Below are positions 5,047 to 45,947 of a DNA stretch of 64,000 nucleotides, in pieces. Position 1 is the stretch's first letter, and every line of letters starts with the position of its first letter. The stretch lies in contig CAMDCV010000014.1 in assembly GCA_945890645.1 (NCBI GenBank), positions 27,591 to 91,590 on the forward strand, in the 5' to 3' direction. The position numbers and the translations under genes were made by a program. The notes under the pieces were generated by a model that did no database searches, was not told where the DNA came from, and saw only the letters and a list, made by a program, of their open reading frames with translations. The stretch is from Akkermansia muciniphila (GTDB lineage: Bacteria; Verrucomicrobiota; Verrucomicrobiia; Verrucomicrobiales; Akkermansiaceae).

Positions 5047-5220
5047 ATGGGTTTTTCCGCCGATCAATATGCGTCTATCAGATCCACGATGTCGTGTCGA
5101 TGCCAGAAATTCTATCGATCAACCCGCTGTCATTGATCGCAGGAAAAATGACAAATTCTCTGCCTCAATCATTCTTTGATTGGCAAGAACGACCATTTCC
5201 TGTAAGGAGCTTCAGGGAAG

Positions 5221-5559
5221 ATGGTAGCGAAAAAAAAACATACCAAGCAGAATGTCAGGCGTTTAAAAGCGCAAACGACATTTATTCGCGTGACCAATGG
5301 CTTTTTGCTTTCCGTCATTCTCATCGCTGGAGCACTCGGCATTTGTGTTTCGTATTGGCCGCAAAAAAACTTGTACCTGAAAAAACAAGGCGAACTCGCA
5401 GAAGCACGGCAGCGTGAAGAAGAAGCCGAGAGCCAGTATGATTACCTCCGCATCAAATTGGATGCCATTAAAAATGACCCCGCCTATCTGGAGATCCAAG
5501 CCCGCGATCGCTTGCAAGTCTATCGTCCCGGTGAAACCATTTTCCGCATTGAACGATGA
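5221..5559 (+). CDS. septum formation initiator family protein (FtsB/DivIC-like)
   Basis: 112 residues. A basic cytoplasmic tail precedes one membrane segment (about 27-45), then a coiled coil rich in Glu, Ala and Leu (about 55-85), then the family-like ending QARDRLQVYRPGETIFRIE. FtsB/DivIC proteins bridge FtsL and FtsQ in the divisome. AAGGAG lies about 14 nt upstream of the ATG. The stop overlaps the hpt start in ATGA, so the two are probably translationally coupled. Confidence 0.8.
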   Translation: MVAKKKHTKQNVRRLKAQTTFIRVTNGFLLSVILIAGALGICVSYWPQKNLYLKKQGELAEARQREEEAESQYDYLRIKLDAIKNDPAYLEIQARDRLQVYRPGETIFRIER

Positions 5560-43441: not shown

Positions 43442-43542
43442 GCGCGGAGGATAGGGTCATGCCCGCTTTTCTGCGATGAGAATTTATGATTCTCTTTGGA
43501 ATCGAACTTGCAGTCACCGAGCAAAGGATTAGCGTTTTCACT

Positions 43543-44544
43543 ATGACTCATCCCTCTTGGAATCGTCGCACCTTTCTCGCTGGCTCTGCCGCGTTGTTTT
43601 CGCAAATGACTGCCGCGCGGGCCGCAGAGACTCCACCGCCCGTGGTACCCACACCATTTCGCAATCCGAACGTCTATCGCTTTCAAATCGGCGACATTGA
43701 GGCATTTTCGATCAGCGATGGTCACTCGCTCATGCGTTCCGGCATAGCCATGATGCATCCCGAGGGTGATCGACCCCAGATGAAAACAGTCATGGAGTCG
43801 AACTATGAACGGCTCGATGGCATACCGCTTTATATTAACATTCTCGTCCTGCGCAAAGGCAAAGAAGTGGCGATTTTCGACGCTGGGTTCGGCAAGTGGC
43901 CCAACCCGAACTTCGGCTGGTTTTTTGATACTTTGGCCTCAGTGGGCATTCAGCGAGGCGACGTGACGGCAGCCTTTCTCAGTCACGCCCATGTGGATCA
44001 CATCGGCGGCTTTGTGACTGATGACGCCATCACTTTTCCGAATGCTCAATTTTTCTGCACCCAGCCAGAGCTCGACTTCTGGTTCTCCCCTGAGCCGGAC
44101 TTTTCTAAATCCAAGCGCGATAAAAAAGAACTTCCTGGGCTGACACGCGACAATCGCAAGCGTTTCGAAATTCTTAAGCCCGTCACCCAAGTGCTCAAGG
44201 ATGGCAGCAGCGTGTGGGATGGTGATATCAAAATCGAACTGGCACCCGGCCACACCGCTGGACATGCGATCTTTCACATCCAGTCGAAAGGCGAAAAACT
44301 GTTGCACATCATGGACCTCGTTCATCACCACTTGCTAATGTTTGAAAATGTCAATTGGACCATCGCTTTCGATCACGATCCCGAGCTCGCGGTGGTGACG
44401 CGAAAAAAAGTATTTGCTCAAGTTATGAGTGAAAAGCCGAGGCTCTATGGTTTCCATCTTCCTTGGCCGGGACTGGGCCATCTTGCGAGCAAATCAGCCC
44501 ATTCCTTTTCATGGATTCCCGAGCGCTATTCTTGGGGATCGTGA
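43543..44544 (+). CDS. exported metallo-beta-lactamase-fold hydrolase
   Basis: 333 residues from ATG 43543. A twin-arginine signal (NRRTFLAGSAALFS) suggests export in folded form. The zinc motif SHAHVDHIGG gives HxHxDH at 148-153; a later GHTAGHA and a C-terminal region with YGFHLPWPGLGH complete the site. The closest known groups are quorum-quenching lactonase-like and other MBL-fold hydrolases; the substrate is unknown. The in-frame extension to 43486 would bury the Tat motif and is rejected. Confidence 0.82.
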   Translation: MTHPSWNRRTFLAGSAALFSQMTAARAAETPPPVVPTPFRNPNVYRFQIGDIEAFSISDGHSLMRSGIAMMHPEGDRPQMKTVMESNYERLDGIPLYINILVLRKGKEVAIFDAGFGKWPNPNFGWFFDTLASVGIQRGDVTAAFLSHAHVDHIGGFVTDDAITFPNAQFFCTQPELDFWFSPEPDFSKSKRDKKELPGLTRDNRKRFEILKPVTQVLKDGSSVWDGDIKIELAPGHTAGHAIFHIQSKGEKLLHIMDLVHHHLLMFENVNWTIAFDHDPELAVVTRKKVFAQVMSEKPRLYGFHLPWPGLGHLASKSAHSFSWIPERYSWGS

Positions 44545-44575
44545 ATCATGCGCATTTTTTTCTGCGAATTTAGAC

Positions 44576-44688
44576 AAAAATTGGCGGTTCCGGCGATTTC
44601 TTATACGAAAGCTTTCGTCTGGTTTTATGGGTTTTTCCAACGATTGCTATCAAACCAAGAGCGGGTTGGCACACAGTGTCAGCCCGCT
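44576..44688 (+). repeat. decayed copy (unit 0) of the downstream sRNA-like repeat
   Basis: It aligns with the two units at 44755 and 44947. It starts with AAAAATTGGCGG where they have AAAAGTTGGCACG, and keeps a GGTTTT-AT-GGGTTTTTCCAA version of their core. It ends in a hairpin with arms AGCGGG and CCCGCT. The -24/-12 spacing is lost and no T-run follows the hairpin. The perfect palindrome ACGAAAGCTTTCGT (44605-44618) lies inside it. Probably a non-functional or diverged relative. Confidence 0.45.
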
Positions 44689-44760
44689 TCACGTTATAAG
44701 GGGTAATGTTTTTTCTGGAGAAATAAGAAAAACATTCATGTGTAAAATTTCGCCAAAAGT

Positions 44761-44776
44761 TGGCACGCCATGCGCT
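44761..44776 (+). promoter_or_regulatory. sigma-54-like promoter of sRNA candidate 1
   Basis: TGGCACG at 44761-44767 and GCT at 44774-44776; GG and GC are 12 bases apart as sigma-54 requires. The predicted start is near 44787. The same element occurs at the same place in the second unit although the bases between the two boxes differ. Confidence 0.55.
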
Positions 44777-44786
44777 ATACATCTGA

Positions 44787-44877
44787 TGTCATTGATTGGT
44801 TTTGGGTTTTCCGACAATGGCGCTAAAGAGGGTGGTGAATCGATCATAGATCAAAGGATTCGCCGCCCTCTTTTTTT
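44787..44877 (+). ncRNA. candidate sigma-54-dependent small RNA, copy 1
   Basis: Predicted transcript of about 91 nt with no plausible reading frame. About 10 nt from the start lies the core TTGGTTTTGGGTT plus TCCGACAATG (44796-44819), shared with copy 2 except for two bases. It ends in a terminator hairpin: GAGGGTGGTGAATC (44828-44841) pairs with GATTCGCCGCCCTC (44857-44870) with two G-U pairs, then seven T. The loop carries GATC and ATCAAAG, also shared. A short G/U-rich unpaired region plus strong terminator is the usual build of base-pairing sRNAs. The transcript itself is inferred. Confidence 0.55.
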
Positions 44878-44952
44878 GTTTCCCGCGTCTTTTATCATGC
44901 CTTTTGGTTCGTTTTGACGAATATCTTTCATAATCGCATTTCAGATAAAAGT

Positions 44953-44968
44953 TGGCACGAGTTCCGCT
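44953..44968 (+). promoter_or_regulatory. sigma-54-like promoter of sRNA candidate 2
   Basis: TGGCACG at 44953-44959 and GCT at 44966-44968, with the same 12-base GG to GC spacing as in copy 1 and in front of glnB. The predicted start is near 44979. Confidence 0.55.
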
Positions 44969-44978
44969 ATTCAATGGT

Positions 44979-45066
44979 GTTGCTGTTTGGTTTTGGGTTA
45001 TCCGACAGTGACACAAAAAGGGGCGGCGAATCGATCGTGTATCAAAGGATTCGCCGCCCTCTTTTC
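44979..45066 (+). ncRNA. candidate sigma-54-dependent small RNA, copy 2
   Basis: Predicted transcript of about 88 nt. The core (44987-45010) starts 8-9 nt from the predicted 5' end, as in copy 1, and differs from it by two bases. The terminator stem GGGCGGCGAATC (45021-45032) with GATTCGCCGCCC (45048-45059) has G-C pairs where copy 1 has G-U, so pairing is kept while sequence changes. CTTTTCTTTTT follows. The repeats are 192 bp apart, with unrelated sequence between units. The downstream neighbour is convergent. Confidence 0.55.
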
Positions 45067-45140
45067 TTTTTGTGGAATAGACGAATTAACATTCAAAATA
45101 GGGGAGCATTTCAAACCACTGATGACTGCTCACTTCACAC

Positions 45141-45947
45141 TTACACTTCATTCCCCACCATCCAAACTCCCAATACTTCGCCGCGCTGCCACTCACCGTC
45201 CTTTTTTTCTACAAGGCCTACGCGCAATTCACGCCCCTGCCACTCGCACCAATACGCTGCACCCGGTGGCATAAAGGACCCGCTATTGACGACCATGATC
45301 GATTGATCATTCCAAATGCCACTGCGATGGAAATGACCGCAAATCACAATCTCGCACTCCGGAAAATACCGCTCGGTAAGCTCGCGCGTGCGATGTACCA
45401 TCGTCGCCCATGCCGTGAGCATGCGCCACGCCCGACCCGGGGGCGTGACCGCATCCCAAATCCGCGCAATAATCTTCTTACTATGCGCATAGTAGGGTGG
45501 AGCAAGCATGCGCGAAACCTTACGCGCGAGGGCAAAGCGCTGCGCAATCGTGGCTTGCGGTGTGCCATCGATCAAGGCATGGATTTCTTTCTCTTTCAGC
45601 ATCGCCATACGGCTCCAAGGCGCAACTTCGGGGAATACGCAGTCGCCATGCATGATGACGATTTTTCCTTCCGCCAGTGCGACGTAATCACGATTCCCCA
45701 TACCAGGATCGTGATTGCCGGGAAGTGCCACGATGTCGATTCCCATTGTCTGACAGAGTGCCTGCAAGTCATTCCATAGGCGCAAACCATCATCGCGAAA
45801 CTCGCGTGCTAGTTCCTGCCACGTATCGCCATTCAGGACAAGCGTCCCAGCACCGCGCAACAATGGTTCGAGAGCGGCGACGTCATCGATCGAAGACGCC
45901 TTATGGCCCAAGTGCAAATCCGAAAGAATGAGCACTGGCTCTTTCAT
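45141..45947 (-). CDS. calcineurin-like metallophosphoesterase (LpxH-like)
   Basis: 268 residues. The five metallophosphoesterase motifs are present: SDLHLGH (Asp-10, His-12), LNGDTW, LPGNHD, HGD, and GHFHRSG. LpxH-type enzymes cleave UDP-2,3-diacylglucosamine in lipid A synthesis, and UDP-sugar diphosphatases of this fold are common, but specific LpxH residues could not be confirmed. Its start overlaps the stop of the upstream methyltransferase gene by 4 bp, so the two are co-translated. Confidence 0.75.
   Translation of the reverse strand: MKEPVLILSDLHLGHKASSIDDVAALEPLLRGAGTLVLNGDTWQELAREFRDDGLRLWNDLQALCQTMGIDIVALPGNHDPGMGNRDYVALAEGKIVIMHGDCVFPEVAPWSRMAMLKEKEIHALIDGTPQATIAQRFALARKVSRMLAPPYYAHSKKIIARIWDAVTPPGRAWRMLTAWATMVHRTRELTERYFPECEIVICGHFHRSGIWNDQSIMVVNSGSFMPPGAAYWCEWQGRELRVGLVEKKDGEWQRGEVLGVWMVGNEV

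Follow-up and report, generated by a model that had tools for sequence, protein, structure and literature searches.

Tandem predicted sigma-54-dependent small RNA genes of Akkermansia muciniphila carry a hairpin loop found in other predicted RNAs

Two similar stretches of DNA lie between a metallo-β-lactamase-fold gene (43486-44544, plus strand) and a calcineurin-like phosphoesterase gene (45141-45947, minus strand) of Akkermansia muciniphila, raising the question of what they encode and how their products might work. The window, meaning the whole 64,000-nucleotide stretch of DNA that was analysed, belongs to contig C14 of a 3.82-Mb genome in 66 contigs (97.55% complete). A preliminary description made from the letters of the window had read the two stretches as a pair of candidate sigma-54-driven small RNA (sRNA) genes. 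Our analysis points to tandem predicted sigma-54-switched sRNA genes whose conserved UUUUGGGUUUU loop is likely to serve in trans as a seed that pairs with other RNAs, a reading to which we assign slightly better than even odds (about 0.55).

Layout, fold and recurrence of the two units

The gene-free region, described as about 600 bp long, is the intergenic gap 44544-45141. Its two units of about 120 bp occupy 44755-44877 and 44947-45071, and their aligned parts are 80-81% identical. Both start with AAAAGTTGGCACG (at 44755 and 44947, 192 bp apart), both have GG and GC at a distance of 12, and the 24-nt core TTGGTTTTGGGTTTTCCGACAATG differs between them at two positions. A terminator-type hairpin with a T run closes each unit, and pairing in the terminator stem is retained between the units through G-U to G-C exchanges. 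The original observation of tandem units with box, core and terminator hairpin is confirmed. Two copies of the core were found in the window at up to two mismatches and still two at up to four, whereas 10 Markov-1 random windows did not contain a single one.

Both units follow one plan, TTGGCACG-N6-GCT followed by a 34-nt 5′ hairpin and the terminator, all on the plus strand. In unit 1, the upstream element AGAAAAACATTCAT (44726-44739) contains TTCAT at 44735-44739, 25 bases before TTGG, and precedes the sigma-54-type −24/−12 box TTGGCACGCCATGCGCT (44760-44776). The 5′ hairpin GUCAUUG-A-UUGG[UUUUGGGUUUU]CCGA-CAAUGGC (44788-44821), indicated by folding and covariation, presents the loop UUUUGGGUUUU (44800-44810), which is common to other RNAs, and is followed by the terminator hairpin with its T run (44825-44877). 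Unit 2 repeats this arrangement with the upstream element CGAATATCTTTCAT (44918-44931; TTCAT at 44927-44931), the box TTGGCACGAGTTCCGCT (44952-44968), the 5′ hairpin GUUGCUG-U-UUGG[UUUUGGGUUAU]CCGA-CAGUGAC (44979-45012) with the loop UUUUGGGUUAU (44991-45001), and the terminator hairpin with T run (45015-45071). With GG set at −25/−24, the transcript start predicted from box spacing coincides with the G that opens the 5′ hairpin or precedes it by one base, at about 44787/44788 in unit 1 and about 44979 in unit 2.

A BLASTN search of 57 genomes gave matches in six, every one in the genus. The covariance-model search of related genomes that the preliminary description had proposed was run with a model (R1) of the box and the 5′ hairpin made from 16 units, and it revealed 19 units in nine of the 10 genus genomes: two each in the own genome, G001, G006 and G008, three each in G003, G007 and G009, and one each in G004 and G005, with none found in G002, where RpoN is present. 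The three units of G003 were outside the training set, yet they were recovered with the fold retained. Nineteen occurrences of the complete unit, in nine of the 10 genus genomes, are more than chance would give. By the criterion of the preliminary description, homologues keeping neither the −24/−12 element nor the hairpin would have refuted its reading. The reading withstood this check: the box is present in all 19 units and the 5′ hairpin covaries, with the qualification that R1 includes the box, so that copies without it score lower.

Outside the genus, R1 gave seven matches at E ≤ 1e-3 in the other 250 genomes of the family, all of which proved on inspection to be bare sigma-54 boxes without the shared hairpin, and none at E ≤ 1e-5 in the 386 genomes of the order; both searches used stricter filters, with which weak matches are lost. 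One extragenus match (in L044) with a partial GGUUUUG was judged to be due to chance. Within the genus, some copies are syntenic in several genomes, where they adjoin the gene families F1 and F2, and G006 and G007 also have ectopic copies beside other genes. The ectopic G006 unit (L017 12200-12600) is about 5 kb from a minus-strand sequence that by eye resembles a 16S rRNA gene, and the neighbourhood of the ectopic G007 unit includes, at a distance of a few hundred bases, a gene for what by eye is an RRM-type RNA-binding protein (MDIYVGNLPF...; L018 ~5130-5400).

The 5′ hairpin covaries. Across the 19 units, in an alignment fitted to the model and thus leaning towards structure, 83.7% of 202 cells are paired compared to at most 54.1% when slid, with 31 double-change cells versus 12.3 in shuffles and both-sided changes in eight of the 11 pairs. 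In a sequence alignment of 16 units, the values are similar (80.6% of 170 cells; slid, at most 54.6%). The innermost GG/CC column is unformed as aligned in six of the 19 units, which is partly an alignment artefact, since the U run varies in length. All 19 loops have the form GG-U..GGGUU..-CC, are 10-12 nt long and vary in the number of U residues before GGG. Most units have near-identical terminator sequences, and those of G005, G008, one unit of G007 and one of G003 are unrelated to them; therefore, the terminator is kept as structure.

Promoter elements and sigma-54 machinery

The preliminary reading as a sigma-54-driven sRNA pair is supported by the features that it predicts in the DNA: TTGGCA and GCT at −24/−12 spacing in 19 of 19 units, a covarying 5′ hairpin and retained terminators. 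Upstream of the box, TTCAT occurs in 15 of the 19 promoters and is missing from four. It starts exactly 25 bases upstream of TTGG in 13 of the 15, 26 bases upstream in another and 20 in the last; mono-nucleotide shuffles reach at most three in any 3-wide window. In the 14 aligned sites, the AAA ahead of TTCAT is invariant or nearly so. A search of the 10 genomes for TTCAT, 19-21 bases and the box found 15 places (none with the reversed control), of which 14 are sigma-54 units and the fifteenth is at the start of a protein gene in G003. The site is located at about −52 from the predicted start and is likely to be bound by a regulator.

The machinery also favours this reading. The RpoN DNA-binding domain is present in nine of the 10 genus genomes; it was not found in G007, although this genome is listed as 98% complete and contains three sigma-54-type units along with two strong activators. 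The own genome likewise encodes two strong activators, each with a receiver and a sigma-54 domain. One is a receiver-AAA protein of 458 aa (L103 2779-4155) that has GSFTGA and in which no DNA-binding domain was recognised at E ≤ 1e-3, and the other is a 465-aa receiver-AAA-Fis protein with GAFTGA encoded beside a PAS-histidine kinase; we take these motifs to have the role generally ascribed to them in such activators. By eye, the gene at L103 2779-4155 adjoins a uracil phosphoribosyltransferase-like gene.

A strict sigma-54 box pattern matched the own genome six times. Two of these matches are units 1 and 2, and the other four are not convincing promoters. Within the window, a sigma-54-like box, TTGGCACAGTCCCTGCT (958-974), lies shortly before the gene for a P-II nitrogen regulatory protein (993-1340, PF00543), and no TTCAT element precedes this box. 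Sigma-54 is generally associated with nitrogen control, and this association, together with the P-II gene box, does no more than suggest that the units may be under nitrogen control.

Predicted RNAs with the same loop and its possible mode of action

The preliminary description had recorded the core and overlooked that it forms a hairpin loop, which predicted RNAs lacking a sigma-54 box also carry, as well as a diverged third copy nearby. This copy (class B, 44600-44690, plus strand) comprises a hairpin with the loop UUUUAUGGGUUUUU (44623-44636) followed by a strong hairpin, which is also the plan of the sigma-54 units. It is directly 3′ of the metallo-β-lactamase-fold gene, without a clear promoter, and has similar copies in L014, L015, L019 and L065, which are also behind genes of the F2 family. 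A box-like sequence at 44578 (AAAAATTGGCGGTTCCGGCG) was not counted as a third sigma-54 unit, because in L014, L015 and L019 the class B copies lack a box at this place.

The predicted class C RNA, which extends across the family, was reached through a search for sites complementary to the loop, as its opposite strand bears GAAAAACCCAAAACC across genomes. Its promoter has TTGAC (28 of 35 copies) about 17 bases before a −10-like hexamer, and the RNA consists of a 5′ mini-hairpin and a terminator stem with the loop GG-UUUU(U)GGGUUUUU-CC. The own genome has a copy at L135 2802-2897 (G000:C42:16301-16396, minus strand) with the promoter TTGACG and the loop GGUUUUGGGUUUUUCC, and in several genus genomes a second copy is nearby. 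A model of class C made from eight genus sequences (R2) matched 111 of the 386 order genomes at E ≤ 1e-3, including every one of the 10 genus genomes, 88 from three further genera (16 in g7, nine in g10 and 63 in g13), one in g3 and 12 weak matches in other families, with up to 10 matches in one genome.

The class C sequences inspected were those of the 10 genus genomes and of the 20 best-scoring extragenus genomes, which are 20 of the 88 in g7, g10 and g13. Three of their 38 matches read an already counted hairpin on its opposite strand and were discarded, and 35 were retained. The stems of these 35 copies covary (841 of 871 cells paired, slid at most 51%; as for the 19 units, the pair counts are from an alignment fitted to the model), and the loop shows almost no variation in GGG and the U tracts, with one U optional. 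The loops of the sigma-54 units have the same form, GG-U(3-5)GGGUU..-CC, and the loop UUUUGGGUUUU is common to the sigma-54 units, class B and, almost to the letter, class C. In contrast, the class C scaffold (a GUCGC 5′ mini-hairpin and a GGCGG..CCGC terminator stem holding the loop) has no convincing match in the sigma-54 units (best R2 score 18.5 bits, E 0.013); hence, the loop is shared and the scaffold is not.

The loop is likely to be the part that regulates, and to do so without Hfq, which was not found in any of the 10 genus genomes (PF17209; as a control, the same search is positive in five of 14 well-known genomes). Action in trans through the loop is suggested because the neighbouring genes vary, the promoters and terminators are the RNAs' own, and the loop stays while the stems change. 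The units would thus be sigma-54-controlled members of a loop-sharing sRNA family that act in trans, probably by base pairing and possibly as a protein decoy. Pairing is favoured because known multicopy loop or seed families, also beyond the Bacteroides FopS family, mostly pair, and because the loop contains UUGG, a U-turn-type motif. UUGG is of the YUNR type, which is described as able to present bases for fast RNA-RNA contact (PMC6562991).

In the proposed mechanism, RpoN polymerase and an enhancer-binding activator would begin transcription at the base of the 5′ hairpin, TTCAT being the probable regulator site, and the terminator would free a short RNA. When the sigma-54 signal is on, the released RNA would supplement the dose of loop provided by class C, and the GGG in the loop centre may make the first, Hfq-free contact with target RNAs bearing CCC.

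Several results count against this explanation: leaders are not enriched for complements of the loop, G007 has three units and no RpoN found, G002 conversely has RpoN and no unit found, and four of the 19 promoters have no TTCAT. The varying number of U residues before GGG additionally counts against a long fixed pairing. The complement pattern GGAAAACCCAAAACC at up to two mismatches matched the 10 genomes 202 times versus 122 for the reversed control, an excess that is due in part to the opposite strands of the loop RNAs themselves. The conserved GAAAAACCCAAAACC matches, considered as targets, were rejected as the opposite strand of class C. Among the matches listed, five of 80 further sites inspected were in leaders, compared to 550 of 6400 random places (8.6%), hence there is no leader enrichment, and in 232 start regions loop pairing was no better than with shuffled loops. 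The odds on pairing were assigned with knowledge of the null leader result. One of the five leader sites, GGAAAACCCAAACCC (L193 647-661, G008), is 29 bases before a 161-aa EF-hand gene (691-1173) and could form 12 contiguous pairs with the loop (−20.8 kcal/mol); it is a possible target and serves as a lead, not as evidence.

A serious rival, which we nevertheless consider unlikely, is that the loop binds an RNA-binding regulator and that the induced sigma-54 units add decoy sites in the style of RsmX/Y/Z and RsmA/CsrA. The many copies in single genomes (class C matches reach 10), the fixed GGG beside a U run of varying length, the lack of enrichment of complementary sites in leaders and the failure to find Hfq in the 10 genus genomes are all in line with such a decoy. 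CsrA/RsmA binds GGA in hairpin loops, and GGA is absent from the loop in all 19 units, which argues against a decoy. Moreover, known multicopy families such as FopS are described as working by pairing (PMC11697453).

It is very improbable that the hairpins belong to neighbouring genes, as their terminators, attenuators or processed 3′ ends, and are not trans-acting RNAs. Class B would fit such an origin, being right behind the metallo-β-lactamase-fold gene without a clear promoter and, in the four related loci, behind F2 genes. Units 1 and 2, on the other hand, have their own box and terminator with no same-strand gene between or after them, the ectopic copies of G006 and G007 adjoin other genes, and the 5′ hairpin covaries separately from the terminator. 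Even less probable is a selfish or mobile palindromic repeat with a chance promoter: copies do occur at several unrelated places, and class C is repeated up to 10 times per genome, yet several genomes retain the syntenic copy by the F1/F2 genes, there is conservation of promoter, TTCAT element, loop and stem pairing alike, and viral contigs gave no match to either of two exact patterns. A gene for a small peptide is hardly credible and was rejected, since the open frames of 20-35 codons through some units yield no peptide shared across the 19 units, whichever of the three frames is followed from the core, indels in loop and terminator shift the frame and move the stops, and conservation tracks base pairing.

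Taking pairing or decoy action of the loop together, a broader proposal, on which we would put somewhat less than even odds, is that Hfq-less Verrucomicrobiota have a post-transcriptional network around UUUUGGGUUUU. In such a network, an RNA with a housekeeping promoter would serve many genera and the sigma-54 copies in one genus would give nutrient or stress control, with a dedicated RNA partner or RNA-binding protein and no matching curated RNA family.

Comparison with known systems

No Rfam family matched the window at gathering score. Rfam scans by E-value gave no match in L001, which holds both units, and across seven loci only chance-level matches beside a tRNA and its overlaps. RsmX/Y/Z are redundant RNAs that repeat one loop motif and titrate RsmA/CsrA. 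The RNAs described here resemble them in redundancy and in the single repeated loop motif, and differ in the loop centre, which is GGG between U tracts instead of GGA.

The preliminary description had also drawn a parallel to the Vibrio Qrr RNAs. The parallel is an analogy of function, between predicted tandem sRNAs with a sigma-54 promoter, and not one of family membership, because there is no Rfam match and Hfq was not found. As described for qrr1 of V. fischeri, Qrr RNAs are short, have sigma-54 promoters and an upstream activator site, and have siblings in several Vibrio species (PMC10162802). The corresponding sigma-54 promoter directly upstream is seen, by sequence only, in 19 of 19 units with the 12-base GG-GC spacing. 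In contrast to the 13-bp LuxO site TTGCAWWWTGCAA, placed at −175 to −60 in qrr1 (PMC10162802), the units have TTCAT, which is fixed in position and closer to the start. The gene context and core sequence are also unlike those of Qrr.

Myxobacterial Pxr is presented as a stable RNA of several stem-loops with apparent sigma-54 promoters and tandem paralogs in Cystobacter, adjoining the sigma-54-dependent response regulator gene nla19 (PMC5568312). No such neighbour was seen at the units, which are set apart from Pxr by this gene context and by the absent Rfam match. The Bacteroides GibS RNA and the 14-copy FopS family offer a further likeness, with one conserved element in many paralogs and one differently promoted RNA (PMC11697453). 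The R1 seed of FopS is reported there to be single-stranded at the 5′ end and to bind RbpB, whereas the element described here is a closed hairpin loop and one of its branches appears to be sigma-54 driven.

Few sRNAs have been catalogued outside the Proteobacteria and the Terrabacteria group, and an Rfam survey lists eight distinct sRNAs for the whole PVC group compared to 345 for Proteobacteria (PMC9029176). Within the partial coverage of our literature search, titles and abstracts do not describe sRNAs of this kind in Verrucomicrobiota. An RNA family with a near-invariant loop is thus seen across several genera, without an Rfam match, in genomes where Hfq was not found and with one branch apparently wired to sigma-54, and sRNA action in Hfq-less Verrucomicrobiota therefore becomes testable. 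One loop under two kinds of promoter would be a natural experiment in the rewiring of a seed or a decoy. Placed in none of the Rfam families tested, the two units would yet appear to work like the sigma-54 sRNAs Qrr and Pxr and like the same-seed families of GibS and FopS.
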